From: an uncultured SAR86 cluster bacterium | Lineage (GTDB): Bacteria; Pseudomonadota; Gammaproteobacteria; Magnimaribacterales; D2472 | Assembly: GCA_902630885.1 (NCBI GenBank) | Contig: CACOWI010000009.1 | Span: 1-52,374, forward strand | Reading direction: 5' to 3' | DNA length: 52,374 bases | Shown here: one piece after another, positions 747 through 52,374 of the stretch | How positions within the stretch are numbered: position 1 is the stretch's first letter | Layout: every line of letters begins with the position of its first letter | The notes under the pieces: model-generated | What the model was told of the DNA's origin: nothing | The model's database searches: none | What the model saw: only the letters and a program-made list of their open reading frames with translations | Program-made: the position numbers and the translations under genes

Positions 747-751
747 ATCTT

Positions 752-3082: not shown

Positions 3083-3090
3083 AAAAAGTT

Positions 3091-3119: not shown

Positions 3120-3131
3120 ACGCGTCACATT

Positions 3132-3347: not shown

Positions 3348-3349
3348 TT

Positions 3350-3793: not shown

Positions 3794-3809
3794 TAATTTT
3801 TTATAAAGC

Positions 3810-7029: not shown

Positions 7030-7064
7030 TTTAATGTTCTCCTTTAAAAAGATACTCTATTTTA

Positions 7065-9248: not shown

Positions 9249-9268
9249 GATAACCCCCCTATAGTCAT

Positions 9269-9538: not shown

Positions 9539-9581
9539 TTAATAATCTCCTGGGACGAGTATTCTAATTCCAATTACCCCA

Positions 9582-11040: not shown

Positions 11041-11072
11041 TTAAATATTGTATTTTGCATAGGGATTGAGTT

Positions 11073-11747: not shown

Positions 11748-11766
11748 GCAATGCATACATTAACTC

Positions 11767-11798
11767 AAAAAAAATCCAGGGCTGCAACCCTGGATTTT
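11767..11798 (-). terminator. Rho-independent terminator after hppA
   Basis: A perfect 11-base inverted repeat (AAAATCCAGGG at 11771-11781 and its complement at 11788-11798, 6-base loop) is followed on the minus strand by a run of eight T. It lies 18 bases past the hppA stop and before the next minus-strand gene, so it should end the hppA transcript. Confidence 0.88.
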
Positions 11799-11815
11799 AA
11801 TTATAAGTTCCTTAA

Positions 11816-13798: not shown

Positions 13799-13863
13799 AT
13801 GAAACCCCTTAATTTTAATAAAGCATTCTAGCAAATTATTCGAAACAAAAGCGTATTTTTTCT

Positions 13864-15120
13864 CTATTTATTGAATATGTTTTTGTCTAAAAGTTCTTCT
13901 GAATTTGCAACAACGCATGCCACCGCTGCATCACCAGAAACATTTACTGATGTTCTGATCATATCGAGAATTCTATCAACCGCCAATATTAATCCTATTG
14001 CATCAAGTGGAAGCCCTAATGAGCTCAAAATAAGAGCTAATGTAATAGTTCCAGCAGATGGAACAGCAGCTGCACCAATAGAAGCCACCATTGCAAGAAG
14101 AACTATTTGAATATATTCAATCATTGATAGGTCTACACCAACAGTGCTTGCAATGAACATAGTTGCTAGTCCCTGCATAATTGCAGTGCCATCCATGTTT
14201 ATCGTGGCTCCAACAGGAATTACAAATGAAGAAACATCCTTTTTAACGCCTAACTCATCAGTTACTGTCCTAAGAGTTACTGGAATAGTTGCTGCACTTG
14301 ATGATGTTGTAAAAGCAAATAAAGCAACATTTCTCATTTTTTTAAAGAAAATAATTGGATTTAAATTAGCAAATATTTTTAGTACTAAAGAATATGTAAA
14401 AAATAAATGAAACAGTAAAACAAAAATTAGTATCAAGACGTATTGGATTAAATCTCCGAAAATATTTAACCCTTTATCCATTACATAACTACCCATCAAA
14501 CAAAAAACTCCAATAGGCGCAAAACTCATTATGATTAAAACTATCTTCATAAAAACTATATTTAATCTTTCAAAATTTTTAGAAAGATTATCAGTAAGAT
14601 TGTCAGTAAGATTTAGAGCGATGCCAAACAAAATACTTATGAAAACAATTCCCAGCATATTGTTTTCAACAAAGGCCCCAAAAATATTATTAGGAAAAAC
14701 TTTTAAAACAGTATCATATAAACTGGCTTCGCCTGAGGGTGCATTAAATGAGGTAACTTCACCCTCATATCCAGAAATGTTGAAAACCCATCCAAAAAAT
14801 ATTGCAATCACAACAGCAAAAGCGGTAGTTAATAAATAAAGCAGCACTGTTTTTGAAGCTATTGATCCAAGCTTAACCATATTCGATAAAGAAGAAATGC
14901 CAGAAACTAGAGAAAAGAAAACCAGAGGAACTACTATTAACAAGAGGAGGTTCTTGAAAATTTGTCCGCCTAAGTTAAAAAGATATTTCTCTATGCCTAG
15001 AAAAACCGATTGTGAAATTGAGTCTTGAAAATAAAAGAAAATAGAAGCTAAAAGTACACCTGAGAACATACCCACCAAAACATTTCTAGTAAGATTTTTT
15101 GGAGGATCTAATTGACTCAT
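13864..15120 (-). CDS. Dicarboxylate/amino acid:cation symporter (DAACS, GltP/DctA-like)
   Basis: This 418-residue protein has the transporter fold of Na+- or H+-coupled glutamate/C4-dicarboxylate carriers. The serine-rich re-entrant loop [14 protein letters not shown], the TM7 motif [14 protein letters not shown] and the HP2 region [17 protein letters not shown] are all present, followed by the [18 protein letters not shown] motif that holds the substrate and ion ligands. A short tandem repeat (LTDNLTDN) sits in a loop. Which substrate it carries cannot be read with confidence. Its ATG overlaps the rubredoxin stop (ATGA). Confidence 0.92.
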
Positions 15121-15290
15121 GTTATCTCTATCATATCAAAGTCTTCTTTTCCGACACCGCACTCAGGACATAACCAATCCTCGGGAACATCTTCCCATGC
15201 AGTTCCAGGCTCTATTCCATCATCAGGCCAACCTAATTCTTCGTCATATATTAGTCCGCAGACAATACATTCCCATTTTTTAAATTTCAT
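15117..15290 (-). CDS. Rubredoxin (57 residues)
   Basis: Translation on the minus strand from the ATG at 15290 gives a classic rubredoxin. Two iron-binding CxxC pairs are present, CIVCG (Cys8, Cys11) and CPECG (Cys41, Cys44), with the conserved YDE, GWPDDGI and FEDVPEDW-like (WEDVPEDWLCP) elements between them. It is a one-iron electron carrier. The usual partner (alkane hydroxylase or rubredoxin reductase) is not nearby. Its stop overlaps the start of the symporter gene by 4 bases, suggesting cotranscription. No strong ribosome site is visible. Confidence 0.95.
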   Translation of the reverse strand: MKFKKWECIVCGLIYDEELGWPDDGIEPGTAWEDVPEDWLCPECGVGKEDFDMIEIT

Positions 15291-15360
15291 AAAGTGCTAA
15301 AAATTAAGTTATTTCGTTTATAACAAGGAGGCTATAATATCAGATTTAACCATTAAATTA

Positions 15361-15852
15361 ATGAAGCTAAAGCAAAAATCTTCTTGGATAAATTATAAAG
15401 AAATGGCAGAACAGGTCTCTGATGAGATTATAAAGTCTTGGCTGACCGAAAATGGGCCAATAACTAAACGAATTTCAGCTAAGGAAGATTTTGAGTTGAA
15501 TCTTATTCGTGACGAAATTGATGAAGTCGATGAAGCAGATAAAAAATATTTAGGTGATGATATTGGAGAGATTAAAGTAAGAGAAGTTATTCTGTTTGGT
15601 AATAAAGTTCCAAAAGTTTACGCGAAGTCTTTAATACCAGTTAAAACAATTGAAAAAGGGTTTTCAAAACTAGGAAGTCTTGAAACAAAACCTCTAGGTG
15701 ACATATTATTCGAAAAGGATATCTTCGATAAAATTGATGTCATTTACTCTACTTTTTCCAGTGAAATGAATGTATTTTGGGGAAGAAAAACAAAATACTT
15801 AGTTAAAGATCTTCCCTTTTCAGTAATGGAAATTTTTTTAATAGATCAATGA
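15361..15852 (+). CDS. ubiC: Chorismate lyase (UbiC-like)
   Basis: UbiC removes pyruvate from chorismate to give 4-hydroxybenzoate, the ring precursor of ubiquinone. The 163-residue protein shows the family's SWLTENGPITKRI, VREVILFG and SLETKPLGDILF segments, with the arginine of VREV expected in the active site. It is a divergent member, and assignment leans on its 4-base overlap (ATGA) with ubiA, the next enzyme. A TATAAT at 15333-15338 could serve as its -10 box. Confidence 0.85.
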   Translation: MKLKQKSSWINYKEMAEQVSDEIIKSWLTENGPITKRISAKEDFELNLIRDEIDEVDEADKKYLGDDIGEIKVREVILFGNKVPKVYAKSLIPVKTIEKGFSKLGSLETKPLGDILFEKDIFDKIDVIYSTFSSEMNVFWGRKTKYLVKDLPFSVMEIFLIDQ

Positions 15853-16703
15853 TAGATAAAATTCGTTCTTTTATAGAGCTTGCAAGACTAGATAAACCTA
15901 TTGGGATCTATCTCCTATTATGGCCATCATTATTAGGTTATGTTTTGGCAGGAATAAATTCAGAGCTTAAGTTAAAAAACTTTTTGATTGTAGTCATTGG
16001 CTCAATCATAGTTAGGTCCTGTGGTTGCGTTATTAATGATATCAGTGATTATAAAATTGATAAGCTTGTCAAAAGAACTTTGAATAGACCTCTTGCGTTG
16101 GGTTCAATCTCCCTAATCGAAGCATGGTTATTTTTCCTTTTACTGGCTATATCATCGCTTATGCTTCTCTTTCAAACAAACCCTCTGACAATAAAAATAG
16201 CAATATTTTTTGCTTTTTTAATAATGTTATACCCGCTTACAAAAAGATTCTTTGTTGCCCCGCAGTTCATTCTTGGAATCACATTTGGATCTGGTTCAAT
16301 CATTGCGTATACACTAGAGTCTAATATTTTTACAATGTCACTTGCGATTTTATATTCTGGAATAATCGCTTGGATAATAAGCTTCGATACTTATTACGCT
16401 TTAGAAGATAAAGATGATGACGAACGCATAGGAGTAAATTCTACAGCAATTTTATGGGGAAATAATTCAATAATATATTCAAAAATACTCCACATATTTT
16501 TTTATGTATGTCTTTTAACCATTGGAATCATAAATAGTTTTTCAAACCTTTTTTACATATTTTTTTTCTTGCTGGTATATCTTTTTATTCATCAGGCAAA
16601 AATAATTAAGAAAAAGAAATATATTGAAGCATTCAAAATAAACAATTGGATAGGTATTGTTGCCCTTGTTAGTTTCGTGTTCGAAATTATTTACTTAAGT
16701 TAA
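15849..16703 (+). CDS. ubiA: 4-hydroxybenzoate polyprenyltransferase
   Basis: UbiA attaches the isoprenoid chain to 4-hydroxybenzoate in the inner membrane. The first aspartate-rich motif is NDISDYKIDKLVKRT and the second is YALEDKDDDERIGV; both bind Mg-diphosphate. The DKPIGIYLLLWPSLLGY opening is typical, and eight or so hydrophobic helices follow. Length 284 residues is normal. The ubiC-ubiA overlap confirms the quinone role. Confidence 0.96.
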   Translation: MIDKIRSFIELARLDKPIGIYLLLWPSLLGYVLAGINSELKLKNFLIVVIGSIIVRSCGCVINDISDYKIDKLVKRTLNRPLALGSISLIEAWLFFLLLAISSLMLLFQTNPLTIKIAIFFAFLIMLYPLTKRFFVAPQFILGITFGSGSIIAYTLESNIFTMSLAILYSGIIAWIISFDTYYALEDKDDDERIGVNSTAILWGNNSIIYSKILHIFFYVCLLTIGIINSFSNLFYIFFFLLVYLFIHQAKIIKKKKYIEAFKINNWIGIVALVSFVFEIIYLS

Positions 16704-17840
16704 ATGAATAAAAATTTAAATTTTATTGATAGTTTTGATTCGATAGATGAATCTCAGTTTAATAAATTAATTCATGAAGATGATGCTCCCTTTATTCAAT
16801 ATTCTTTTTTAAAGGCGCTTGAAAATTCAGGATGCGTGGGAAGAGATTTTGGCTGGACTCCAAAACATCTGATTAAATCAAACAAAAATATTTTGAGTGG
16901 CTTTCTACCAATATATATAAAAAATAATAGTCATGGAGAGTTTGTTTTTGACCACTCATGGTCATATGCATTAAACAGAGCTGGAAGAAATTACTATCCT
17001 AAATTACTTACAGCTATACCCTTCACTCCATGTGAAACAAGAAAAATAATCACCGAATCTGATTCTGATGAATATATTGAAAAAGTGGTTGATCTTATGG
17101 AGGAGAAAAATATTGAAACTTGGCATGTCCTTTACCCAGATTCAAATTTAAAAGAATTATTTCTAAAAAATAATCTTATAGAACGTTTTGGATATAAGTT
17201 TATATGGAGGAATAAAGGATATGAAGAGTTTGACGATTACCTTAGTATTTTTAAATCAAGACAAAGAAAAAATATAAAAAATGAAAGAAAAAAAATATCT
17301 GACTTAAATATCACTTTTCAAATAAAAGAAAGTGACTCTCTAACGGCTAAAGATTGGGATGATTTTTTTAAATTTTACAGAAATACATATGAGGAAAGAT
17401 TGCAAAGACCCTATTTGAATATAGATTTTTTTAAAGAAATACATAAATTCAGAGAAACTTTAAGGCCTGTTATTTTTTTTGCATTCCATGATAATAAAAA
17501 AATAGCTGGATCATTGTGCTTCGCTGGCAATGACACTCTCTATGGAAGGCATTGGGGGTCATCATACAATATTGACTCTCTTCATTTTGAAACTTGTTTT
17601 TATCAAGGAATTGAGTTCTGTATTAAAAATAAGCTTAAATTCTTTGATCCTGGTGTTCAAGGTGAACATAAAATAAGAAGAGGATTTGAACCAAAAAGAA
17701 CTAGTTCATTCCATTATATTAAAGAGAAAGACTTTAGAGGAGCCATACTAGAATTTTGTGAAAAAGAGCAAGATGAAATTAATAGATATTTAAAAGCATG
17801 TGAGAGATATACACCTTTTAATAAAGAATATAAAATTTAA
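16704..17840 (+). CDS. GNAT/FemAB-like family protein (PF04339 type)
   Basis: A 378-residue soluble protein of the peptidogalycan/GNAT-like family. Recognisable blocks are FSWSYALNRAG-like (FDHSWSYALNRAGRNYYPKL), YKFIWRNKGYEEFDDYL, SRQRKNIKNERK, and the C-terminal GRHWGSSY ... LHFETCFYQGIEFCI, KFFDPGVQGEHKIRRGFEP. These are conserved across proteobacterial members whose biochemical role remains unproved; an acyl or aminoacyl transfer is likely from the fold. It starts at the base after the ubiA stop. Confidence 0.82.
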   Translation: MNKNLNFIDSFDSIDESQFNKLIHEDDAPFIQYSFLKALENSGCVGRDFGWTPKHLIKSNKNILSGFLPIYIKNNSHGEFVFDHSWSYALNRAGRNYYPKLLTAIPFTPCETRKIITESDSDEYIEKVVDLMEEKNIETWHVLYPDSNLKELFLKNNLIERFGYKFIWRNKGYEEFDDYLSIFKSRQRKNIKNERKKISDLNITFQIKESDSLTAKDWDDFFKFYRNTYEERLQRPYLNIDFFKEIHKFRETLRPVIFFAFHDNKKIAGSLCFAGNDTLYGRHWGSSYNIDSLHFETCFYQGIEFCIKNKLKFFDPGVQGEHKIRRGFEPKRTSSFHYIKEKDFRGAILEFCEKEQDEINRYLKACERYTPFNKEYKI

Positions 17841-17842
17841 AG

Positions 17843-18265
17843 ATGATTAAGTCTTTACCAAAAACCAGTCATCAGCTTGCTGTTTGCGAGGCAAACTTTT
17901 TGAGATTAAAGAAAATCCTTAACGATTTTTCAAAAAATAAGTATTCGTTTGAGACGATAAATCCAGACTCTTCATCTAATCCAATATCCTTTCATGTAAT
18001 ACATAGAACATGCCATACATTAATTATTGAGGCTAAGCAGAAAATTAAACTTAAGAGGATAGAAAGTCTTATTATCAGAATACAAATTTCCTTAGATGCT
18101 AAATTAGCAGAAGTCGTATCTTTTCAAGGAGAAAGAGCAGTGCCTTATTTTATGAAAGTGCTTAAAACACAATCTAGAGATGAAAAAATTCAACAAAATA
18201 GATTTTTAACTGAATGGCTGGAGACCATTTTTGCGAATGGTATAAACCCTGAAGTTAAAATTTGA
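17843..18265 (+). CDS. yqiB: DUF1249 family protein (YqiB-like)
   Basis: A 140-residue soluble protein with the family features CEANFLRLKKIL near the N-terminus and VIHRTCHTLIIEAKQ in the middle, ending with NRFLTEWLETIFANG. Function is unknown. In E. coli yqiB lies near yqiA, and here yqiA follows with a 1-base overlap, so conserved neighbourhood supports the call. Confidence 0.85.
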   Translation: MIKSLPKTSHQLAVCEANFLRLKKILNDFSKNKYSFETINPDSSSNPISFHVIHRTCHTLIIEAKQKIKLKRIESLIIRIQISLDAKLAEVVSFQGERAVPYFMKVLKTQSRDEKIQQNRFLTEWLETIFANGINPEVKI

Positions 18266-18837
18266 TGGTAAAAACAATTTTATATTTTCACGGCTTTGCC
18301 TCATCATCAGATTCAGACAAAGCAAAAATTATTAAAAAGCACATATCTAAAGTTTCTAAAAAGATAAAAATATTTACTCCAGATCTTAGTAACGAATTTA
18401 AAGAAGCAAATAGTCAAATACAGAAACTTATTGACGAAAATGAAAAAGACTTTGTATTTATGGGTAGTTCTCTTGGGGGATACTATGCAAATTTTTATGG
18501 AAATATTTATAACTCAAAAGTAATTTTAATAAATCCAGCAATTCCCCCATTGAAGGGTTTCGAGGAGTATCTTGGTGAAAATGAAAATTATTCTACAGGA
18601 GAAAAATTTATTGTTACCAAGGATGATATAAAATTTCTAAGAACTCTTGTGGCTAAAAAATCTAATAACCAAAATAATACATTGATCTTACTAGAGTCTG
18701 GAGATGAGGTTCTTAATTACATTGAAACTGCAAAATACTTTCAAGGTTCGAATATAGATATAACATTTGGTGGAAGTCATTCATATGAGTCAATTACTGA
18801 TAAGTTAGAGAAAATCGTCAAATTCCTAGAAATTTGA
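18265..18837 (+). CDS. yqiA: YqiA-type alpha/beta-hydrolase esterase
   Basis: The opening TILYFHGFASSSDSDKA holds the oxyanion HGF motif, and the nucleophile elbow is GSSLGGYYA (Ser in GxSxGG). A catalytic His is likely in the C-terminal GGSHSYES. At 190 residues it matches the YqiA/YcfP esterases, whose natural substrate is not established. I use the ATG at 18265, overlapping the DUF1249 stop; a TTG sits one codon upstream. Confidence 0.9.
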   Translation: MVKTILYFHGFASSSDSDKAKIIKKHISKVSKKIKIFTPDLSNEFKEANSQIQKLIDENEKDFVFMGSSLGGYYANFYGNIYNSKVILINPAIPPLKGFEEYLGENENYSTGEKFIVTKDDIKFLRTLVAKKSNNQNNTLILLESGDEVLNYIETAKYFQGSNIDITFGGSHSYESITDKLEKIVKFLEI

Positions 18838-18872
18838 TAAATTGAACTAAAATTGAACAAAAAACTTTATTT

Positions 18873-18889
18873 TGCACAAAATTAATGCA
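18873..18889. promoter_or_regulatory. Putative NtrC-binding site upstream of glutamine synthetase
   Basis: The 17-base sequence TGCACAAAATTAATGCA has the TGCAC/TGCA ends and exact length of enterobacterial NtrC sites (TGCAC-N7-GTGCA type). It lies 77 bases before the glutamine synthetase ATG, and an ntrB-ntrC pair follows that gene, so autoregulation of the cluster is likely. I do not see a clean -24/-12 sigma-54 promoter in the remaining leader. Confidence 0.5.
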
Positions 18890-18907
18890 TAATAATATCA
18901 ATATATG

Positions 18908-18933
18908 TGCAATTACATCACAAAATAATTGCA
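18908..18933. promoter_or_regulatory. Inverted repeat in the glutamine synthetase leader
   Basis: TGCAATTA (18908-18915) and its exact complement TAATTGCA (18926-18933) flank a 10-base centre. TGCA half-sites recur at 18873, 18886, 18908 and 18930. The last two intervals are 22 bases, about two helical turns. It may be a second regulator site overlapping the promoter. Confidence 0.35.
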
Positions 18934-18965
18934 TTTAATTTTTTTGATTAATATTTTTAGGAGAA

Positions 18966-19982
18966 ATGATGACTGATATTAAAACATACGAATACATCTG
19001 GTTAGATGGCTATAAGCCTGAGCCCTCAATGAGGAGCAAAATTAAGGCTACCGACCTAAGAGGAACTGATAAAGGAGAGGATAATGATAATATGCCTCCA
19101 AAATGGTCATTTGATGGATCATCAACACAACAAGCAGAAGGAGATAGTTCAGACTGCTTACTAATTCCTGTTCAAATATATGACAATCCAACAACACCCG
19201 ATCACTTAGTAATGTGTCAGGTTTTGGCTGCTGATCAAACAATACATCCTTCTAATACAAGATCTGCTGCTGCTGAAGTTGTAACTGATGAATGGTGGTT
19301 TGGTTTTGAACAAGAATACTTCTTTACTGATCCTGAAACAGGAGAACCACTAGGATGGGAGAATGGTGAGCCTGGTCCTCAAGGCCCATATTATTGTGCA
19401 GTTGGTACTGGAAATGTTTCAGGTAGAGAAGTATCTGAAGTGCATCTTCAAGCATGTATTGATGCAGGTATAAATCTTACAGGTACTAATGCTGAAGTTG
19501 CTATTGGACAGTGGGAGTATCAATGTTTTGGTAAAGGCATAAAAGCTGCAGACGACCTTTGGGTTTCAAGATATCTCTTATATAAAATTGCTGAAGAATT
19601 TGGTGTTGGTGTGAATATACATCCAAAACCAAAAACTGGAGACTGGAATGGATCAGGAATGCACTGTAACTTTTCTAATGAAGAAATGAGAACATCAGGA
19701 TCTGAAGAATTATTTTCATCTATGTGCGATAAACTTGGTGAGGTTCATGAAGAAGGAATAGCTGCATATGGTTCAGATAACGATATGAGATTGACTGGTC
19801 TTCATGAAACTCAAAGTATTGATAAATTCTCATATGGTGTGAGTGACAGAGGCGCAAGTATTCGTATACCTGTATACACCGTTGAACACAATTGGAATGG
19901 CTACCTCGAAGATAGAAGACCTGCATCAAATGCAGATCCCTATAAAATCTTATCTCATATAGTAGGAACTCTTACAAAGTAA
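18966..19982 (+). CDS. glnII: Glutamine synthetase, type II (eukaryote-like)
   Basis: The enzyme makes glutamine from glutamate, ammonia and ATP. At 338 residues it is far shorter than type I GlnA (about 470). It carries the type II signatures WSFDGSSTQQAEGDSSD (about 47-63), FGFEQEY (113-118), NGSGMHCNFS (228-237) and the diagnostic EDRRPASNADPY (315-326). Type II enzymes lack the adenylylated tyrosine loop, so GlnE control would not apply. A second ATG one codon in is possible; a GGAG precedes the first. It is followed by a hairpin and then ntrB-ntrC, the position glnA holds in the enteric glnALG operon. Confidence 0.95.
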   Translation: MMTDIKTYEYIWLDGYKPEPSMRSKIKATDLRGTDKGEDNDNMPPKWSFDGSSTQQAEGDSSDCLLIPVQIYDNPTTPDHLVMCQVLAADQTIHPSNTRSAAAEVVTDEWWFGFEQEYFFTDPETGEPLGWENGEPGPQGPYYCAVGTGNVSGREVSEVHLQACIDAGINLTGTNAEVAIGQWEYQCFGKGIKAADDLWVSRYLLYKIAEEFGVGVNIHPKPKTGDWNGSGMHCNFSNEEMRTSGSEELFSSMCDKLGEVHEEGIAAYGSDNDMRLTGLHETQSIDKFSYGVSDRGASIRIPVYTVEHNWNGYLEDRRPASNADPYKILSHIVGTLTK

Positions 19983-19997
19983 TTTTGGTTATTTATA

Positions 19998-20024
19998 TCT
20001 GCTCTATTTCTATAATAGAGCAGA
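19998..20024 (+). terminator. Hairpin between glutamine synthetase and ntrB
   Basis: A perfect 11-base stem (TCTGCTCTATT and its complement) with a 5-base loop sits 15 bases past the synthetase stop and 12 bases before the ntrB ATG. The following bases TTATT are only a weak U-tract, so it may act as an attenuator or mRNA 3'-end stabiliser, letting the synthetase be made in excess of NtrBC as in the enteric glnA-glnL gap. Confidence 0.6.
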
Positions 20025-27585: not shown

Positions 27586-27661
27586 GCCCAGATAGCTCAG
27601 TTGGTAGAGCAAAGGACTGAAAATCCTTGTGTCGGTGGTTCGATCCCACCTCTGGGCACCA
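27586..27661 (+). tRNA. tRNA-Phe (anticodon GAA)
   Basis: The 76-base gene folds as a cloverleaf: acceptor GCCCAGA pairing with TCTGGGC, D arm with GCTC, anticodon stem AAGGA/TCCTT around loop CTGAAAA (anticodon GAA at 27619-27621), T arm GGTGGTTCGATCCCACC. CCA is encoded at 27659-27661. It directly precedes the accessory island, a common integration position, but I see no repeat of its 3' end downstream in the window. Confidence 0.97.
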
Positions 27662-27690
27662 CTCTATATATCCTTTTGAATTATAGAAAT

Positions 27691-27705
27691 TCTCAAATTA
27701 TGAGA
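27691..27705. promoter_or_regulatory. Short inverted repeat before the methyltransferase gene
   Basis: TCTCA and TGAGA flank AATTA, ending 10 bases before the methyltransferase ATG. Restriction-modification genes are often controlled at such operators, but the arms are only 5 bases and chance cannot be excluded. Confidence 0.25.
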
Positions 27706-27715
27706 TAATTAACCT

Positions 27716-28921
27716 ATGCCCTCAAAAAGAAAAAAACCAAGCGTAGTAGGATTATTTTCTGGCTGTGGAGGACTTGATTTGGGCTTTAAGCAAGCTGGTT
27801 TTGATATTCTTTGGGCTAACGATTTTGATGCTGACAGCGTTAAAACATATAAAGAAAATATTGGCGATCATATTGTTCTTGGAGATATCACCAAGATACC
27901 TAACAAAGAAATTCCTTCAAATTTTGATGTTCTTCTTGGAGGCTTTCCATGCCAAGGTTTCAGCGTTGCAAATGTAAAAAGAAGTATGAAAGATAAAAGA
28001 AATTTTCTTTATTTGGAGATGTTAAGAGTAATTAAAAATAAGAAACCAAAGTTTTTTGTTGCTGAAAACGTTAAAGGACTTTTATCAATGGAAAAAGGCG
28101 CTGTTATAGAAATGATTGTTAAAGATTTTGAGAAAATTGGATATAAGGTTGATTATAGATTATTAACAGCAAGCGATTACGGAGTTCCTCAACATAGACA
28201 AAGAGTATTCATTATTGGAAATAGAATAGGTAAAGAAAACCCCTATCCAAAGATGACTCATGGATTAAAAAATGATTTATTTAATCCAAAGTTAGAGCCC
28301 TATATATCGACTAAAGATGCTATTGGCCATCTTGCATCCGTTAGAACCAGAGATAAACCCTTTAGACACAAAAACGTGACTATATATAATCACGTTGCAC
28401 GAATGAATGTCAGTGACAAATTTTGGGGGAGGAAACATGACGTTAACCAATTTGACATATGTGATTACCTAAAAAAATGGCGGGAAGGAAGCGGTTGGTC
28501 AACAAAAAAAATTGATGAGCATTTTGGATATGCTCATACTGCGGGTCATTGGTTTAGAAAAGATAATAACTCTGGATCTATTCCAAATCCTGATGATTGG
28601 CGAGAACTTAAAAAACTTCTAAAATTTGATAATAAGTACGATAAACAAGTTACCGAACTTGAAGAAAAAACTATAGTCTTTGAACAGTCTTTAAGAATTA
28701 GTAATTGGGAAGAACCTAGCGATACTATTACTGCAACGGGACCTGAAATTCATCCAAATAAAAAGAGAAGATTGAGCGTAAGAGAATGTGCAATTCTTCA
28801 GACCTTCCCAGATGATTTTATCTTTCATGGCGCTATAGGAAGTATGTATAAGCAAATAGGTAATGCAGTCGCAGTAGATTTGGCATATCAAGTTGCTAAA
28901 TTGATTAAGAAAAGTTTGTGA
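27716..28921 (+). CDS. DNA (cytosine-5)-methyltransferase, type II R-M
   Basis: Methylates cytosine C5 in a specific site. Ordered motifs: I (LFSGCGGLDLG, about 13-23), IV (GGFPCQGFS, nucleophile Cys79), VI (ENVKG, about 117), VIII (QHRQRVFIIG, about 159) and X (IGNAVAV near the C-terminus). The target-recognition region between VIII and IX (about 185-340) is large, so recognition could be 5-6 bases; the site cannot be read from sequence. It starts 54 bases after tRNA-Phe and ends flush against the convergent gene below, the common layout of a methyltransferase with its restriction enzyme. Confidence 0.94.
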   Translation: MPSKRKKPSVVGLFSGCGGLDLGFKQAGFDILWANDFDADSVKTYKENIGDHIVLGDITKIPNKEIPSNFDVLLGGFPCQGFSVANVKRSMKDKRNFLYLEMLRVIKNKKPKFFVAENVKGLLSMEKGAVIEMIVKDFEKIGYKVDYRLLTASDYGVPQHRQRVFIIGNRIGKENPYPKMTHGLKNDLFNPKLEPYISTKDAIGHLASVRTRDKPFRHKNVTIYNHVARMNVSDKFWGRKHDVNQFDICDYLKKWREGSGWSTKKIDEHFGYAHTAGHWFRKDNNSGSIPNPDDWRELKKLLKFDNKYDKQVTELEEKTIVFEQSLRISNWEEPSDTITATGPEIHPNKKRRLSVRECAILQTFPDDFIFHGAIGSMYKQIGNAVAVDLAYQVAKLIKKSL

Positions 28922-29866
28922 TTAAATTTGCCATGTATTCACAGCATCCCATGTATTACTCTTTGAGTCATACCTTGTTTTTAAATTACTAAATTGTATT
29001 CTACAAGTTTGAGCTGATAACGTACGTCTGTATTCTTTAGGTTTATCTGTTGGATATGGAAGCCAAGTTTCATTATTATTTGGAACATACCAGCCCACTC
29101 TATCTCCAACCTCTACTTTAAACGAATTATTTGAGAATGTATGACTAAGGGGTAATGTATGGAATATATCATTTCCACCTAGAGGATTAGGTATCTTTTC
29201 ATAATTATAAGTTTTTGCACCTTTTATGCCTAAATCATTATTGAATAAATTTGATAAATCTCCGTTAGGTATGCATATAAACTTCACGTTTGGTTCTTCT
29301 TCATTCCTAAACCAACTAAAACTAGTTCCATTATCAAAATATTTGTACATAATAAAAAAAGTAAGAATAGGTTTTTTTGTTGATGGATCAATTGGTGGAA
29401 TAGCAAAGTTAATGGGCATCCCAGGGTAAGTATTTGAGCTACTAAGAGCATTGCCAAATCCTTTATGATTGAATGATGCCTGGTTGGGACTAAAAAACAA
29501 ACTCCTAAAATCTCCTTTATTGCCGGTTTCAGAAACTGTTTTTGAATCGATATTTATAATTGCATCGTTAGTTTCAAAAGCAATATCGCTACTTATAGGT
29601 GAAACATAAATTTTTGAAAAATGTTGGTAATTTGCATAGCAATAATTTGCAATTAATCTTTGAACGGCTAATTTAACTTTATTTGGACTTTTCCATGCAC
29701 CGAATAACGAATAATTTGATTGTATCCATTTTTCAATACCTAGGAGACTTTTGTTATATGTTTGATCTGTCTTAAATTCATTCAATAAATCATCATAGTA
29801 GAACTGTTCAATATCTGAAATATGAATCTCATTATTTTGCGTTGGTGCTAAAGCTTGTGCTGACAT
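28922..29866 (-). CDS. Probable type II restriction endonuclease (PD-(D/E)XK)
   Basis: I do not recognise a named family. The 314-residue protein has no signal peptide or membrane segment. It has a convincing nuclease core: SSDIAFETNDAIINIDSKT (residues 92-110) gives Asp94, a hydrophobic strand, then Asp107-x-Lys109, the PD-x(n)-(D/E)xK pattern. It lies tail to tail with zero gap against a C5 methyltransferase, which supports the role of cognate restriction enzyme. The C-terminal half, rich in aromatic and asparagine residues, may read DNA. Alternatives: a degenerate or unrelated nuclease. Confidence 0.72.
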   Translation of the reverse strand: MSAQALAPTQNNEIHISDIEQFYYDDLLNEFKTDQTYNKSLLGIEKWIQSNYSLFGAWKSPNKVKLAVQRLIANYCYANYQHFSKIYVSPISSDIAFETNDAIINIDSKTVSETGNKGDFRSLFFSPNQASFNHKGFGNALSSSNTYPGMPINFAIPPIDPSTKKPILTFFIMYKYFDNGTSFSWFRNEEEPNVKFICIPNGDLSNLFNNDLGIKGAKTYNYEKIPNPLGGNDIFHTLPLSHTFSNNSFKVEVGDRVGWYVPNNNETWLPYPTDKPKEYRRTLSAQTCRIQFSNLKTRYDSKSNTWDAVNTWQI

Positions 29867-29915
29867 TACAAAAAATATAATAACATTTTTTGAAAGACTA
29901 TTAATTTAAGGACAA

Positions 29916-29934
29916 TGGCGGCATTTAGCCGCCA
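29916..29934 (-). terminator. GC-rich hairpin after the 85-residue gene
   Basis: A perfect 7-base stem (TGGCGGC/GCCGCCA) with a 5-base loop lies 6 bases past the stop of the minus-strand gene ending at 29940 and about 50 bases before the restriction gene start. There is no clear T-run, so it may be a weak terminator or 3'-end stabiliser. Confidence 0.45.
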
Positions 29935-29939
29935 AATGA

Positions 29940-30197
29940 TTAGTTAAGGCCTGATCTTCTTCTTTCGGTCATTGAATCAAGCAGTGAAGTAATTTGTTCA
30001 ACTGCTATGAAAATGTCTTCAGAATTAACTTCAGCCTTATGATTTGGAATTGCAAGCCTTAAAAGAAGCTCTGATATTGGCATAACATTACTTCTCTTTC
30101 CATCAATAAATCCACAAAGTTTTTGTGAGATGAAAGCTAGTCCATCAACTAGCGCTTCTTCTGGTTTAATTTCAAATCTTTTGTTTTTATCTTCCAT
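29940..30197 (-). CDS. Small conserved-looking hypothetical protein (85 residues)
   Basis: Not recognised. I start at the ATG at 30197, which has a strong AAGGAG five bases upstream, and not at the TTG-like start 21 bases earlier. The product is soluble and helical, with a lysine-rich start (EDKNKRFEIKPEEAL), a hydrophobic middle and a C-terminal RRRSGLN tail. Its ribosome site begins in the stop codon of the 53-residue gene upstream, so the two form an operon. It sits in the accessory block, divergent from the AlbA_2 gene. Possible roles include antitoxin or regulator, but nothing proves one. Confidence 0.6.
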   Translation of the reverse strand: MEDKNKRFEIKPEEALVDGLAFISQKLCGFIDGKRSNVMPISELLLRLAIPNHKAEVNSEDIFIAVEQITSLLDSMTERRRSGLN

Positions 30198-30205
30198 AAA
30201 ACTCC

Positions 30206-30367
30206 TTATAAGTGCCACATAAATGCAGCAAAATTAATATAATTTTGTTTGATTCGTTCGTCGTTATTCTTTATTCGGTCATGGATTGCTGAGTTATACT
30301 TTGGCTGCTTACCAGGGCAGTCTTTGGTTGTAATTTCTACGAACTCAGTTCTGTTAAATGTTATCAT
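30206..30367 (-). CDS. Small hypothetical protein (53 residues)
   Basis: An ATG at 30367 opens 53 codons ending in TAA at 30206. The product begins MITFNRTEFVEITTKDCPG and ends INFAAFMWHL. It has a charged middle (RIKNNDERIKQN) and one cysteine. Support comes from its neighbours: the stop codon forms part of the AAGGAG ribosome site of the next gene (TAAGGAG), which is tight coupling seen in real operons. It fills what would otherwise be a 170-base gap. No family recognised. The start is only 25 bases from the divergent AlbA_2 gene start. Confidence 0.55.
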   Translation of the reverse strand: MITFNRTEFVEITTKDCPGKQPKYNSAIHDRIKNNDERIKQNYINFAAFMWHL

Positions 30368-30392
30368 CTATTGCTAGCAAAAATAAATAAAT

Positions 30393-31658
30393 ATGTGGTT
30401 TTTAAAAAGAAAAAAAACAAATTATAAAAATACAGGTAAAAAATGGACTGATAAAGAAGAATCAATTCTTCTAGAAGGAATGAGAGCCGAGGCAACATCA
30501 GAAGAGATAAGTAAAATATTACAAAGAGAACCATCTGCAATAGCAGCCAAATATAATCAAATAAATAAAAAAAGAAGATCCGGTAGTTGGAGTGAGGAAG
30601 AAACAAAATTACTTATTGCTCTTTGGAATGATGGAGCGTCACTTGAGTCTATTGGTCAATCACTAAATCGAAAGAGAAATTCAATACTTGGTCGTTTAAA
30701 TTCTTTGTCATCTTGGGGATATCCAGGAAAAATAAAACAAAACTTAAGCATTGGCAAAACTTCCAATAATTCAGAGATAATATTTGACATGGATGAGGCT
30801 ATTTTAAACTTCCAAAATAGAAATTTTACTCCATCATTAAAACTATCTGACATTGATAAAGATAGCTTTGGAAATACGATCTTAAAAGATGAGACAACAT
30901 CTTCACCTAAAGATAAGATAAAAGAATATGCACTAAAAGGATATGAAATTGAACATATTGCAGAACAAACTAACCTCAGCGCTAAGAATGTTGAAGAAGT
31001 TATGGATGAAATAAAAATATGGGATAAATACGATTCAATTATGCTTAAAAAAGCCGAAGATAGATGGGGTAGACAGCCAAAAAAAGGAAATGAAAAAAGT
31101 ATATTTGATGAACTTATGATAAAAAGAGAGCAAGAAGAAAATAAAGCAAAGGATTACGTCAGACGACTAATATCTTCTCCTGAGGGTACTCAGACTGAAT
31201 TTAAAGAAACATTTTGGCGATGTACAAGAACAAAAGAAAATAATAATAAAGATGTCATTCACTCTTCTATGAAGAATATAAATGCTTTCTTTAATACAAA
31301 AGGTGGGGATTTAGTTATTGGTGTAAGAGATTATGATCGGGATGTTGTTGGCATAACCTTTGACGGATACAAAGATGACGAGACATATACAAGAAGAATA
31401 AGAGATAGAATAAAAAACTCAATGAAAGGTAAGTTCTCACATTTATTTAATATAACTATTGTTGAAATAAAAAAACAAAAGTTATGCCTAATTACAGTTG
31501 AAGCCTCAGATGAGCCCATCTTTCTTCATGATAAAAAATATAAAGATAGGGAACTATTTTATGTCAGAGAAGGAGATAGTGCTGTCTTATATGATGGGAG
31601 GAATATGATAAATTATATTCAAAATACTTTTAGTTCAAATAATGATAAAAATAAGTAG
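30393..31658 (+). CDS. Tandem HTH (GcrA/Myb-like) - Schlafen AlbA_2 domain protein
   Basis: The 421-residue protein has two similar N-terminal HTH units, WTDKEESILLEGMRAEAT (about 18-57) and WSEEETKLLIALWNDGAS (about 66-105). The second ends RNSILGRLNSL, close to the GcrA/SANT pattern. A third HTH-like stretch (about 174-208) precedes a charged linker. Residues 257-410 form a Schlafen AlbA_2 domain: GTQTEFKETFW, NINAFFNTKGGDLVIGVRD, GI, and REGDSAVLY. AlbA_2 domains occur in transcription regulators and in nucleases acting on RNA or DNA. Its end overlaps the next gene by 17 bases. Probable role: DNA-binding effector or sensor of a defence unit (inference). Confidence 0.8.
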   Translation: MWFLKRKKTNYKNTGKKWTDKEESILLEGMRAEATSEEISKILQREPSAIAAKYNQINKKRRSGSWSEEETKLLIALWNDGASLESIGQSLNRKRNSILGRLNSLSSWGYPGKIKQNLSIGKTSNNSEIIFDMDEAILNFQNRNFTPSLKLSDIDKDSFGNTILKDETTSSPKDKIKEYALKGYEIEHIAEQTNLSAKNVEEVMDEIKIWDKYDSIMLKKAEDRWGRQPKKGNEKSIFDELMIKREQEENKAKDYVRRLISSPEGTQTEFKETFWRCTRTKENNNKDVIHSSMKNINAFFNTKGGDLVIGVRDYDRDVVGITFDGYKDDETYTRRIRDRIKNSMKGKFSHLFNITIVEIKKQKLCLITVEASDEPIFLHDKKYKDRELFYVREGDSAVLYDGRNMINYIQNTFSSNNDKNK

Positions 31659-32361
31659 AACTAGCGTAGAAAAATATATTAATTGCAAGAGATGTTGTGT
31701 TTTAGAAGTTAAATATAAAATCAGGCCTCGTTCTCTTCCTTTTACTCTGAACATTGGTATCGATAATCTTTGTAAGAATGAATTTGATCATTATCGAGAA
31801 AAACAAGAACCCCACCCTCTTTTTGAAAAACACAATATAGATGCCGTTCCCTTTAAACATCCAGATATAGATGAATGGAGAAGTAATTTCAAAGGTATTA
31901 GATATATATCTGAAGAACATCAATATAATTTTGGCGGTGCGATCGATGATGTTTGGGAGAAACCTAACGGACAATTAATTATTTCGGATGTAAAAACGAC
32001 TGCAAAAAATGAGTTTGATTGGGAAGATACATATAACAAATATGATTACGCAAAAGGTTATCAACGTCAGTTAGAAATGTATCAATGGTTATTTAAGATG
32101 AATGGTTATGATGTAGCGCCTGAGGCATATATCATCTATTACAACGGCAAAAAAAATGAACCTTTCTTTGATAAGAAGTTAGAATTTGATGAGTATGTAA
32201 TTAAGCTCGATTGCTCTACTGATTGGGTAGAGGAAAAAGTCATTGCCACAGCAAATTTAATCCGCTCTGATGAATTTCCAAAACCATCAAGTACATGTGA
32301 AAACTGTAATTATTTGAAAAAAAGATGGGAGCTCTCACAAAAAATAAATAATGAAAGATAA
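31642..32361 (+). CDS. PD-(D/E)XK nuclease, Cas4/RecB-like
   Basis: A 239-residue nuclease of the PDDEXK_1/RecB family. Motifs appear in order: SRTSVEKYINCKRCC (cysteines 15, 18, 19), GGAIDDVW (Asp102), ISDVKTT (Asp116, Lys118) and YQRQLEMYQWL (the Q-x-x-x-Y helix). CENC (219-222) lies near the C-terminus. N-terminal plus C-terminal cysteines are the layout of the iron-sulfur cluster in Cas4 and AddB, though here one C-terminal cysteine of the usual three is not evident. No CRISPR array or cas genes are in the window. It overlaps both neighbours, so it belongs to one operon with the AlbA_2 gene. Confidence 0.82.
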   Translation: MIKISRTSVEKYINCKRCCVLEVKYKIRPRSLPFTLNIGIDNLCKNEFDHYREKQEPHPLFEKHNIDAVPFKHPDIDEWRSNFKGIRYISEEHQYNFGGAIDDVWEKPNGQLIISDVKTTAKNEFDWEDTYNKYDYAKGYQRQLEMYQWLFKMNGYDVAPEAYIIYYNGKKNEPFFDKKLEFDEYVIKLDCSTDWVEEKVIATANLIRSDEFPKPSSTCENCNYLKKRWELSQKINNER

Positions 32362-32611
32362 GCTCTTCTTTTTATTATTGAGAATACTTAGAAAAATTCC
32401 ACTTATAAGGAATATTGATTTTATTGATAGTTTTTTAATGGAAAGGGTTGGAGAGCTTGAAGATGATTCAGAGGTTCTCTGGATATCTGATCCTCATACA
32501 AATATTCACTTTTGGAAAGAAAATGGCAAATTTTATACCAGTAAAGAATTTCATCTTTCTAAAGGAGGTCTTGAAGAGGATTTTGAAGAGTGGTCAAAAA
32601 AAAGTAGATAG
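32351..32611 (+). CDS. Small hypothetical protein (86 residues) in the nuclease operon
   Basis: Not recognised. The N-terminus (KLFFLLLRILRKIPLIRN) is hydrophobic and basic, compatible with an amphipathic or membrane-associated helix. The rest is acidic and aromatic-rich (VLWISDPHTNIHFWKENGKFYTS). It overlaps the nuclease gene by 11 bases, which argues it is translated with it. It could be a membrane-acting partner or an immunity factor; both are guesses. Confidence 0.6.
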   Translation: MKDKLFFLLLRILRKIPLIRNIDFIDSFLMERVGELEDDSEVLWISDPHTNIHFWKENGKFYTSKEFHLSKGGLEEDFEEWSKKSR

Positions 32612-32659
32612 TATTTCTGAATAAGCTATTTCAAAATTCATACAGAAGTGTATATTTGA

Positions 32660-33064
32660 ATGATGTCTAATGTCGTGAGTATTTTTGGTGAAACCGTAAA
32701 CCCTAAAGCCAAAGATTTCGAAAAATTAATAAATGAAGAGATTAAAGAAAGCCTTGAACACTTTCGAGGCCTAATGAAAACTCTTATATTTGAAGATAAA
32801 AGATCATTAAGAAAAAAACCTCATTTAAATTCAAAAGCTGTTACAACCGACTTTATGGTTTTACATATGATTAATGTAGAATTAATTGAATCAATGTTTG
32901 AAGAATACCTATTAGATTATGGTAAAACGAAGTACATTAAGTCAAAAAAGGCATATTTTTATAGCAGAGTTATGCCCTTCTTTGATAAAAATCTTCAAGA
33001 CTATGATCATTTAATAGACATGAATCTATGCACCAAAAAATTTAATGATTTTTGGCGACGTTAA
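32660..33064 (+). CDS. Hypothetical protein (134 residues)
   Basis: Not recognised. It is a soluble, largely helical protein: an acidic/basic N-terminal half (EKLINEEIKESLEHFRGLM) is followed by VTTDFMVLHMINVELIESMFEEYLLDYG and a lysine/aromatic-rich end. Two ATGs at 32660 and 32663 are possible starts. A 48-base gap separates it from the 86-residue gene, so it may be the fourth gene of the same unit. It ends 6 bases from a convergent small gene. Confidence 0.6.
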   Translation: MMSNVVSIFGETVNPKAKDFEKLINEEIKESLEHFRGLMKTLIFEDKRSLRKKPHLNSKAVTTDFMVLHMINVELIESMFEEYLLDYGKTKYIKSKKAYFYSRVMPFFDKNLQDYDHLIDMNLCTKKFNDFWRR

Positions 33065-33070
33065 AAAAAA

Positions 33071-33373
33071 TTAGAACCAATTATCAGTAGAGTATTCTAT
33101 TTCATATTCGTCGCATAATTCTCTTAGATCTTTGACAGTAAATCTTTCTTCAAAAGTAAAACCTTTCCAAAAAGAACAAAGAATAAATTTTGCGACATCC
33201 TTTTGATGAATCATCATAAAGTATTCATACTCATCAGTGCCCCAAAATTCTTTAACGCCCTCTCCAAGATCATGTTCACAGAAATGAAGGTTACCTTGGT
33301 CATCCCAATCACAATGAACGTTATGGTTAATTTTTCCATTAGGATTATTAATCTCACATTTAAATACTTGCAT
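33071..33373 (-). CDS. Hypothetical protein (100 residues)
   Basis: Not recognised. I start at the ATG at 33373, with GGAG six bases upstream, and not at the earlier in-frame codon giving nine more residues. It is acidic and aromatic, with repeated cysteine/histidine pairs (HCDWDDQGNLHFCEHDLGEG), which could bind metal. The C-terminal half reads FTVKDLRELCDEYEIEY. It is convergent with the 134-residue gene and closes the accessory block. No signal peptide. Confidence 0.6.
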   Translation of the reverse strand: MQVFKCEINNPNGKINHNVHCDWDDQGNLHFCEHDLGEGVKEFWGTDEYEYFMMIHQKDVAKFILCSFWKGFTFEERFTVKDLRELCDEYEIEYSTDNWF

Positions 33374-33508
33374 ATCTTTCTCCATAAAAAACGCACCCAA
33401 AATTAGGTGAGTTGAAGTGAGTAATGGAATCTGAAATAAGGAATTTATTTCTTTCTTTACACTTATTTATGTGGGGATTTTATTGAAAATTTCAACCTTA
33501 AGATTACT

Positions 33509-34660
33509 TTAGCTCCATGATTTATCAATTTTAATTTTGGCATCCTCCATACCGAATGATCTATAAATTTCCATTAAAAGTTTTTTATGATCAATAAAAT
33601 TACTTTCAGGCGCAACTACTCCTGTTGCTGATATTTCTTTATTAAGAAACATTTTTAGGCCTATTGAAAGAGGATTACCCGTTGCTTCACCCATAGTTAA
33701 ATCTCTAGTTAATGTTCCATCAAGCGATACTCCAACAGTTTCCTCATTGCCATTCTTAAGCCCAACCGCTAAAGCATAAATCTCTGGTAGAGAGTTTTCT
33801 TGAATATGATTTTGAGAACTTCCTTTTCTTTCAAGCCATTCTAAAAATCTTGCGGCAAGATTTTTTGTCATTACTTTTAAATTAATTAGTTGTCTTATAA
33901 TTCTCAAAACTAATATAGTGGATTTGTTTCCATGGGCGAGATTGACTGAGTTTGTAATATCTTTGTGATGATATGGAAATGTTATTGCCTCAGGATGGCC
34001 AAAAATATATGCATTATATGTTCCATGATTAGGGTATGAAATTTTTAATTTTTTTAAAGGGCTAACCATCTTAAAACTATTATCCTTAAATATCTTAACT
34101 TTTCCTGAAATTTGCTCGATGCCATGAATCATGGCAGCATTTGTCTCTTTTTGTGAAGATATGTCCTCTGGTTGGGCCTCCTCTAGATTCCAGCCAGTAT
34201 AAATTGTATGAGCCTTATCAAGATTATCTATTGCAATTTTTCCTAATAAATTTGTAATCCCTGGACTAGCTCCAAGACCTAATATAGCTAAAAGATCCTT
34301 TTCTTTTGCTTTACTGTTGAGCTCTAGCATCTTCTCTGTTGGCTCCCAGTCATCACAAATATCCATATAATGACAGTTAGCATCAAGAGAAGTTTGGAGT
34401 ATTTTATAGCCAAACTTAAAGAATGGTCCTACAGTGTTTAGTACAACATCATAATCAAATAAGATGCTTAATAATTTTTCAGTATCATTGATATCAACTC
34501 CGATTCCTTTTGTATGAGAGCCTAACTGAGAAGCAAGGATCTCAGCATCTTCTTTATTCAAATCTGCAATACCAAGATTATCAATTTCTTTAAATGATGA
34601 GATTGATTTCGCAACATACCTACCCATTCCACCGCAGGCACCTAAAATTATTACTTTCAT
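33509..34660 (-). CDS. Saccharopine dehydrogenase family protein
   Basis: The Rossmann start VIILGACGGMGRYVAKSI and the GLGASPGITNLL motif place this 383-residue protein in the saccharopine-dehydrogenase-like NAD(P) reductases. Members act in lysine degradation, carboxyspermidine formation or lipid reductions, so the substrate is open. The C-terminal part contains a VVAPESNFID stretch common to the family. It is divergent from the SDR gene with a very short gap, so the promoters overlap. Confidence 0.82.
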   Translation of the reverse strand: MKVIILGACGGMGRYVAKSISSFKEIDNLGIADLNKEDAEILASQLGSHTKGIGVDINDTEKLLSILFDYDVVLNTVGPFFKFGYKILQTSLDANCHYMDICDDWEPTEKMLELNSKAKEKDLLAILGLGASPGITNLLGKIAIDNLDKAHTIYTGWNLEEAQPEDISSQKETNAAMIHGIEQISGKVKIFKDNSFKMVSPLKKLKISYPNHGTYNAYIFGHPEAITFPYHHKDITNSVNLAHGNKSTILVLRIIRQLINLKVMTKNLAARFLEWLERKGSSQNHIQENSLPEIYALAVGLKNGNEETVGVSLDGTLTRDLTMGEATGNPLSIGLKMFLNKEISATGVVAPESNFIDHKKLLMEIYRSFGMEDAKIKIDKSWS

Positions 34661-49723: not shown

Positions 49724-51112
49724 CTAACTTCCTTCAGCTCTTTCAGCAAGAATACCTGTACTTTGCTCTTCAAGCACACTAATAATTCCTTTAGCTGATG
49801 AAGCTGTAAACGAATGCAACAAAGTTGTTGGTATTGCAACCAATAAACCTAATACTGTAGTTACAAGTGCCTGTGATATACCGCCGGCCATTAATTTAGG
49901 ATCACCAGTTCCATATAAGGTAATCATTTGGAATGTTACAATCATACCTGTAACAGTTCCTAACAGACCTGCAAGAGGCGCCACTACAGAAATTATTCTG
50001 ACAGCACTAATACCTCTTTCGATAGAAGGTCTCTCAGCCATAATTGCTTCAGCAAGTTTAAGCTCTAATGTATCAATATCCTTACTAAAGTTTTCTTCGC
50101 CAACTTTAAGAACTCTACCAAGCGGATTTCTGACATCAAGAGTCTTAGATCCAGCTTGAGCTTTAACTGCCTTTCCAAGAATATAAAGACTATATAACTT
50201 CCAAAATGCAAGTCCAATTCCTATTAAACCAACAAAAATAATTGCATAACCAACCTCTCTCCCTTGCGCAGCTCTCTCCGCTAATGATGGAGTTTGAATT
50301 AGGTTAGCTAATAAACTACCACCAGTTGGTCCAGTTGGATCAACACCAAACCTAACTTGTTCACCAACATCAGCATTTCCAACACTCTTAGCTGTTTTTG
50401 TAAATCTTCCGGCAGGTTGTCTTGGTAAAAATGCGTATTGTCCTGTTGCAGGAACATATTCTAAATATTTTCCATCACATACAGCATTGAATAATCCAAC
50501 CCTTGTAACATTGCATGTAGAAGATTCACCATCTACATCAATGACAGTTGTATCAAAAGAAACCACTTGTCCGCTTGCAACCATTTCTCTTTGTAACTCA
50601 TACCATAGCCCTTCAATTTCTGTGATAGTAGGTAGTTCTGTTGTCTCTGACATTTTTGAAGTCAAATCATTTAAAAAATCGACTCTTTCAACACCATATT
50701 GCGGACTGGTTAATGATCCTGAAAACTGAACAGCTGCTTCACCTGCTGAACTTTGAAGATGACCAAATAACTCAACTAAAGATCCAAGCTCTTTTTGATA
50801 GGCTTCCTCTTTAACTCTAAGAATTTCTTCATTTTTCTTATATTCAGCTTCTAATTGATCTGCAATTCTTTCTTGCCTAGCTAATTCTCTTTTTTCAGTA
50901 GCTAAGATTTCAGCCTGTTTATTTTTGTTTGCCATAAACTCAGCTTCTCGAACTGCATTTTCAGACTGTTCTCTAGTTTTACCTTCTTTTACAAGTAACA
51001 ACAGAGCCTCAACAGTTGAAATTTCTACTTCCTCGCCTTCAGAATCTTGCGCAAAAACAAAAGTATTAATTGTTAAAGAAAGAACAAATAAAATTGATAA
51101 ATACTTTTTCAT
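49724..51112 (-). CDS. ExbB-like protein with periplasmic coiled coil (TtpC-like)
   Basis: A signal peptide (YLSILFVLSLTINTFVFAQ) leads into a coiled coil (about 60-125, rich in Glu, Lys, Gln) and a periplasmic domain. A membrane helix (VGYAIIFVGLIGIGLAFWKL) and the MotA_TolQ_ExbB core then follow, with APLAGLLGTVTGMIVTFQM and TTVLGLLVAIPTTLL. The 462-residue form matches TtpC, the extra subunit of Vibrio TonB2 systems. It begins at the last base of the upstream DUF3450 gene. Confidence 0.9.
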   Translation of the reverse strand: MKKYLSILFVLSLTINTFVFAQDSEGEEVEISTVEALLLLVKEGKTREQSENAVREAEFMANKNKQAEILATEKRELARQERIADQLEAEYKKNEEILRVKEEAYQKELGSLVELFGHLQSSAGEAAVQFSGSLTSPQYGVERVDFLNDLTSKMSETTELPTITEIEGLWYELQREMVASGQVVSFDTTVIDVDGESSTCNVTRVGLFNAVCDGKYLEYVPATGQYAFLPRQPAGRFTKTAKSVGNADVGEQVRFGVDPTGPTGGSLLANLIQTPSLAERAAQGREVGYAIIFVGLIGIGLAFWKLYSLYILGKAVKAQAGSKTLDVRNPLGRVLKVGEENFSKDIDTLELKLAEAIMAERPSIERGISAVRIISVVAPLAGLLGTVTGMIVTFQMITLYGTGDPKLMAGGISQALVTTVLGLLVAIPTTLLHSFTASSAKGIISVLEEQSTGILAERAEGS

Positions 51113-51879
51113 TATACTTCTCCTTTGACAACCGGCATCATCATCATGTCTGTCGGAGCTAATTTCTTAGCAATTCTGATTGCATCCCTGATAGGCTTCC
51201 TATAACTACCGGATAACTCTTCCCAGGTTCCAGTTTCATTATCCCATCTTCCACTAGTCCTTTCGTCTTTCGTTTGATAAAACATCCCTATTCTTCCAAT
51301 CACGAGAATATTTACAACAGTCCCATCTGCTAACTTGTCCTCATAGGTATCAATTTTACGCCCGTACTCTGCCTCAATATTGTATGCTTCAAGAACTTGT
51401 CTTACTTGTTCAGATGCTGTTACTTTTGGTTTTGCCAGAGATGATCTGACCAAATCAACCCTTGCTCTTCTTTCTTCAGCTCTAAAGGGAGTGTCTAAGT
51501 TGATAAAGGTTTCAAGAGTATCGAGCATTTTTTGAGCCAAAGGAGGTATTTGTCTTTGCATCACAACAACTTGAACTAACTGTTCATCAAGCTTATCCAT
51601 TAAATCAAGTTGAGCTTGAATTTGAATTCTTTTTTGAGCGTTGTATAGCTTTAAACCTTCAACTTGTTTATTGACAACTTTATATTCATTCACGAGTTTG
51701 TCAGTTTGTCTTTCTGTTTTATCGATCTTATCCTGTGAGTTGGCAGAAAGGGTTTGGTTTTCTCTACCAACTTCTAAAATACTTTCCATATTTACTTCAA
51801 CATTAGCTTCATTTGCTGAAACCAATACACTTAAGCAAAAAAATACTGGTAAAGATATATTCTTTATATATTTAAACAT
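51112..51879 (-). CDS. DUF3450 family periplasmic coiled-coil protein
   Basis: A signal peptide (NISLPVFFCLSVLVSA) is followed by a long heptad region (about 35-125) and a globular end with NILVIGRIGMFYQTKDE. DUF3450 proteins regularly precede TtpC-ExbB-ExbD-TonB genes, and their role in the complex is not established. AGGGAG lies upstream of the ATG. This is the first gene of the six-gene minus-strand operon. Confidence 0.92.
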   Translation of the reverse strand: MFKYIKNISLPVFFCLSVLVSANEANVEVNMESILEVGRENQTLSANSQDKIDKTERQTDKLVNEYKVVNKQVEGLKLYNAQKRIQIQAQLDLMDKLDEQLVQVVVMQRQIPPLAQKMLDTLETFINLDTPFRAEERRARVDLVRSSLAKPKVTASEQVRQVLEAYNIEAEYGRKIDTYEDKLADGTVVNILVIGRIGMFYQTKDERTSGRWDNETGTWEELSGSYRKPIRDAIRIAKKLAPTDMMMMPVVKGEV

Positions 51880-52034: not shown

Positions 52035-52115
52035 TTATAATTTAGGAAATAACATTGGGGTATTCTTCTTATAAGACTTATAGCCCTCATCATCAGCCCA
52101 TTTTTTGTCCTCATA
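52035..52115 (-). pseudogene. C-terminal fragment of a DUF1295 (steroid-5-alpha-reductase-like) gene
   Basis: On the minus strand 26 codons end in TAA at 52035. They read EDKKWADDEGYKSYKKNT then PMLFPKL, matching the conserved end of DUF1295 proteins (the KWGDDPxYxxYKxxTPxLIPKL pattern). An in-frame stop at 52116-52118 cuts it off from any upstream part, exactly where an oppositely oriented piece of the same family begins. Confidence 0.6.
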
Positions 52116-52116
52116 T

Positions 52117-52374
52117 CAATCCATTTCGCTAAATTTTGGAAATTTAGTTTTAGTTTTATTTATTTCAATTTGGACAATTAGACTGGGCATGTTTTTATTC
52201 ATGAGAATACATAAAGCTGGAGAGGATAAAAGATTTAGAACAATCAAAACATCTGCTTCTCAGTTTTTTATGACATTCACTATATCAGGGTTATGGGTAA
52301 CACTTTGCTCAATGTGTGCACTCGTAGCCATATCTAGCTCTGAAGGTATAGTTATGAATGCTTTGACTTATACT
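52117..52374 (+). pseudogene. Central fragment of a DUF1295 gene, opposite strand, runs off the window
   Basis: The plus-strand frame (52117 onward, no stop to the window end) encodes ISIWTIRLGMFLFMRIHKAG then EDKRFRTIKTSASQFFMTF, the conserved middle of DUF1295 membrane proteins. The N-terminal 60-80 residues expected before it are missing, and a stop lies at 52081-52083. Together with the minus-strand C-terminal piece it looks like one gene broken and inverted. Confidence 0.6.

Follow-up and report, generated by a model that had tools for sequence, protein, structure and literature searches.

The final stretch of about 270 bases in contig C9, from the draft genome of an uncultured SAR86 cluster bacterium, is almost certainly an artefact of amplification or assembly and not biology. 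At this end of the contig the middle part of a DUF1295 gene (PF06966) lies flipped against the 3' end of the same gene. We consider it very probable that this tail is an inverted chimera that formed in vitro, during multiple displacement amplification (MDA) of a single cell by phi29 polymerase, and was then assembled into the contig end. The window, as we call the whole stretch of DNA analysed, is the entire contig of 52,374 bases, so that the feature sits at a contig end rather than at an edge set by the choice of window. The draft genome has 16 contigs and 1,058,774 bases, and is rated 79% complete with 0% contamination. Judged by matches to the DUF3450 protein encoded near the join, the majority of its named relatives are SAR86 cluster bacteria. 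The features concerned are the following:

51112 to 51879, minus strand: DUF3450 gene, intact (PF11932, 222.7 bits), with a match in 58 of 60 relatives
52035 to 52106, minus strand: forward arm, the 3' end of the DUF1295 gene in its normal place and orientation, 23 codons and the stop
52101 to 52109, no strand assigned: join zone, with TTTTTT at 52101-52106 common to the two arms of L007, the closest relative
52107 to 52374, plus strand: inverted arm, the middle part of the DUF1295 gene, about 89 codons, flipped and reaching the contig end (PF06966, 47.5 bits)

Two pieces of one DUF1295 gene

On the plus strand, a frame at 52105-52374 that stays open to the contig end matches PF06966 over profile positions 37-121 of 235, and its 47.5 bits compare with a curated cut-off of 20.4 bits for this family. 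From 52101 to 52374, 251 of 274 positions agree between the contig and the complementary strand of L007 3050-2777. The intact DUF1295 protein of L007 has 281 amino acids and scores 198.4 bits against the same profile. The minus-strand translation reads ...YEDKKWADDEGYKSYKKNTPMLFPKL* with its stop at 52035; YEDKKWADDEGYKSYKKNTPMLFPKL matches the end of the DUF1295 protein in the relatives, for example ...DKKWANDESYKSYKKSTPMLFPKL in L007, and 64 of the 72 bases at 52035-52106 agree with the intact L007 gene at its 3' end. Compared with L007, the flipped piece carries 16 synonymous base changes and 7 bases in codons with a changed residue. Because it is free of stops and its changes are mostly synonymous, any disruption of the gene would have to be recent.

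By itself the minus-strand piece has no Pfam match, and the equivalent stretch of 27 amino acids in the intact L007 gene (L007:2417-2500) likewise has none, so that the miss is uninformative. The original prediction, which had placed two facing pieces of one DUF1295 gene at the contig edge, is confirmed by the profile match of the plus piece and the base identity of the minus piece. It had also named failure of either piece against a DUF1295 profile as grounds for giving the reading up. The plus piece matches; the minus piece fails in the letter, but since the same 27 residues of an intact relative fail as well, the profile is an unfair test for it.

We rejected the possibility that the tail is a paralogue or a second genomic copy, as a query of the 340 bases matches only itself in the assembly. 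The DUF1295 protein encoded on C3 is a different and distant paralogue, and a third DUF1295 match in the genome, on C8, is weak (20 bits). A phage origin of 52035-52374 was also rejected, there being no match in the phage collection searched.

Gene order in related genomes

The DUF3450 gene at 51112-51879 on the minus strand served as the synteny anchor. Its protein was searched in the 60 relatives, of which 58 matched, and 30 loci were taken, one of these loci being the window itself. A further set of named relatives comprises 80 loci kept out of 107 found, and genomes overlap between the named and congeneric sets. In all 29 congeneric loci and in 75 of the 80 named ones, DUF3450 has a full-length DUF1295 gene upstream of it and on its own strand. 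A search of other assemblies of the lineage for such an intact gene was the check proposed with the original prediction, and its outcome supports the reading given there. The remaining five named loci begin at a contig end, two with a partial gene and three less than 100 bases upstream of DUF3450. Among these 29 congeneric and 80 named loci, none has DUF1295 in the opposite orientation or spread over two strands.

Contig C9 is collinear with four relatives from about 36680 to 52109-52117, and in all four the last 270 or so bases, from 52101, match the minus strand. Between the two arms lie 287 bases in G003 (75476-75762, the arms ending at 75475 and resuming at 75763-76034), 280 in G020, 289 in G012 and 280 in G021. 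The part between the arms, said from the start to be missing, is thus truly missing from the contig.

Position of the join and overlap of its arms

The contig was walked base by base against both arms in seven relatives (L007, L005, L006, L008, L009, L010 and L016). The forward arm is left for good at 52107 in all seven, with a one-base difference at 52104 in three of them. The inverted arm is matched from 52101 onward, and 52096-52100 have no matching base in any of the seven. Read from these relatives, with the two original arms of this genome not both visible, the longest run common to the arms within 52101-52109 is 9 nt in L008, 6 nt in L007 and L005, 5 nt in L006, L009 and L010, and 4 nt in L016; an exact TTTTTT is found in both arms of only one of the seven, the closest relative L007. 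Only L007 and L005 have an inverted arm that agrees with the contig at 52107, so the exact base of the switch within 52101-52109 is not certain. On these alignments the join lies at about 52101-52109 and is best placed at 52101-52106 by L007. An inverted join had been predicted just before about 52117; the inverted join stands, its position moves to the zone read from the seven relatives, and the last few bases formerly credited to the minus piece belong to the plus piece.

In L007 some 560 bases separate the breakpoints, at 2488 and 3050, and position 2777 is the counterpart of the contig end. When 200,000 inverted joins with breakpoints 200-1500 bases apart were drawn at random in these loci, the arms had at least 6 nt in common in 0.27% of draws and at least 4 nt in 2.2%. 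An overlap so rare at random points to the annealing of a 3' end rather than to an arbitrary mis-join.

An inverted segment inside a gene is also the expected product of an invertible (phase-variable) DNA switch, which in this case would act on the DUF1295 gene. The recombinase of such a switch needs inverted repeats of sufficient length at both breakpoints, and the breakpoints here have 4-9 nt in common, without a long inverted repeat of the kind a recombinase would use. No relative is in the flipped state, and the two neighbour genes that were scanned with Pfam, encoding the DUF3450 protein and a MotA/ExbB-type protein, are not recombinases. We regard a switch as exceedingly improbable.

The contig end and the rest of the assembly

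Beyond the join the contig runs on for about 268 bases, and the chance that a random breakpoint falls within 274 bases of an end in this assembly is 0.8%. The bases between the arms are absent from the assembly. Neither this stretch nor the upstream stretch of L007 (3051-3762) has a match in it, save for 43 bases of the C3 paralogue. The contig ends before the point at which a true inversion would show the bases between the arms.

The contig by itself is therefore compatible with a genuine and very recent inversion of about 560 bases between short T-rich and A-rich runs, inactivating DUF1295 in this one SAR86-type cell. A simple inversion would start identically, with the missing bases just beyond the contig end, and the contig alone cannot tell the two apart; the distant paralogue on C3 might soften the loss of the gene. 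Such an event is nevertheless unlikely, and we give it very little weight: the normal order is kept in all 29 congeneric loci and in every named locus that extends into the gene (77, of which 75 have it in full and 2 in part), the inverted repeat common to the breakpoints measures no more than about 4-9 nt in the relatives, the join lies where chance would seldom put it, close to a contig end, and the normal upstream DNA is absent from the assembly. If the tail is instead a chimera made in vitro, as we think, the cell itself most likely carries a normal, intact DUF1295 gene on the minus strand.

Compared with the four relatives, five other contig ends (C10 right, C13 left, C6 left, C11 right and C2 right) and the left end of the window have no fold-back, and in three overlapping pieces covering the window no further contig-end strand flip came to light. 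As the other ends compared are clean, joins of this kind are not common in this assembly. At the left end of C6, the match in G003 falls into two separate places, both on one strand, and three relatives keep this end whole. All 32 contig ends were also screened for open frames and self-inverted 14-mers, with a few hits, at C12 left, C6 right and C7 right.

Other variable regions of the contig

Elsewhere in the window (27586-33069), some 5.4 kb that follow a tRNA-Phe gene (27586-27661) have no counterpart in the four relatives used for comparison. This region encodes a C-5 cytosine DNA methylase (PF00145; 27716-28921), a protein of 314 amino acids without Pfam match on the opposite strand (28922-29866), a Schlafen/AlbA_2 protein with a Myb-like domain (30393-31658) and a PD-(D/E)XK nuclease-like protein (31642-32361). 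The make-up of 27586-33069 suggests a tRNA-borne restriction-modification or defence island. The adjoining 430 or so bases (33069-33511) have a match near the same place in G012 (91%) and one at a distant place and on the other strand in G021 (89%); they are perhaps a small mobile or shuffled segment.

Window 6514-17250 occurs twice in G012 (C2:120030-149662), where the order is window 1-11493 (88%), 11870-17250 (97%), 6514-13989 again (84%) and 14796-20000 (83%). Either a tandem duplication or the joining of two strains in the G012 assembly could account for this.

Origin of the join

The join probably formed as follows. While phi29 polymerase amplified the DNA of a single cell by MDA, a 3' end that had been displaced and that closed with the T-rich run at about 52101-52106 would have annealed to the matching A-rich run, which lies some 560 bases deeper in this DUF1295 gene, on a displaced strand from the same molecule; a switch in the reverse sense, from the other arm, is equally conceivable. 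Extension in the opposite direction would then yield a fold-back join without the intervening DNA. At a contig edge of low coverage, the assembler could have taken this chimeric molecule as a continuation and run out about 268 bases later.

Isolate names with AG-, AH- or SCGC occur in 49 of the 80 named loci by hand count, some of those records being titled MAG, and we take such names among the named kin to be those of single-cell genomes. From the isolate names of its kin we infer MDA for this genome; its status as a single-cell amplified genome and the low coverage at the contig edge are likewise presumed.

The same geometry, at the edge of contig C9, would also arise from a fold-back artefact of another origin (a library-preparation hairpin, an end-repair artefact or an assembler error) in a draft made without MDA, and the amplification history of this genome is not readable from its sequence. 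We find this unlikely, since the MDA pattern is matched by an overlap of around 6 nt and by breakpoints that lie a few hundred bases from each other, and single-cell-like isolate names, as we read them, are carried by more than half of the named kin. Under an MDA origin as under any other artefactual one, the tail holds no biological novelty and is an ordinary artefact.

The terminal 270 or so bases should accordingly be trimmed from contig C9 or flagged. Left untrimmed, they would lead annotation to report a spurious truncated DUF1295 gene on the plus strand and a gene break or inversion that is just as spurious. As an example of a chimera surviving into an assembled draft rated at 0% contamination, the junction is a clean one.

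Comparison with known chimeras

Both arms of the join have the same source, one DUF1295 gene as found in L007. In L007 this gene is intact, whereas the window keeps only the last 23 codons and stop in place and has about 89 codons from the middle in flipped orientation.

Inverted chimeras are described for phi29 MDA in two studies, of which we draw on particular passages. In those of Lasken and Stockwell (2007; PMC1855051), 406 of 475 single-cell MDA chimeras (85%) are inverted, 337 of those 406 have their parts less than 10 kb apart, and most chimeras have 2-21 nt of priming complementarity at short complementary sequences. In those of Tu et al. (2015; PMC4595205), a larger set has about 70% inverted chimeras and an overlap peak of 6 nt; its distance peak of 250-300 nt perhaps uses a measure other than that of our 287-base gap, and we do not lean on the likeness. 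A figure of 1.5 misassemblies per 100 kb is given in a passage of PMC11247762.

As these passages present them, MDA chimeras are seen in single reads, whereas our case lies in an assembled contig end and its amplification method is taken from its kin. The original prediction had preferred a chimeric join, by MDA or misassembly, over an inversion, and the geometry, the distance and the short overlap bear it out. The join in the window is like such chimeras in its inverted orientation. The bases between the arms are absent from the assembly, as they would be from such a chimera, but the contig ends short of the point at which a true inversion would show them. The join is like published chimeras also in proximity, with breakpoints about 560 bases apart and so well under 10 kb, and in overlap, with 4-9 nt in seven relatives and 6 nt in the closest, against 2-21 nt and a peak at 6 nt in the published sets.
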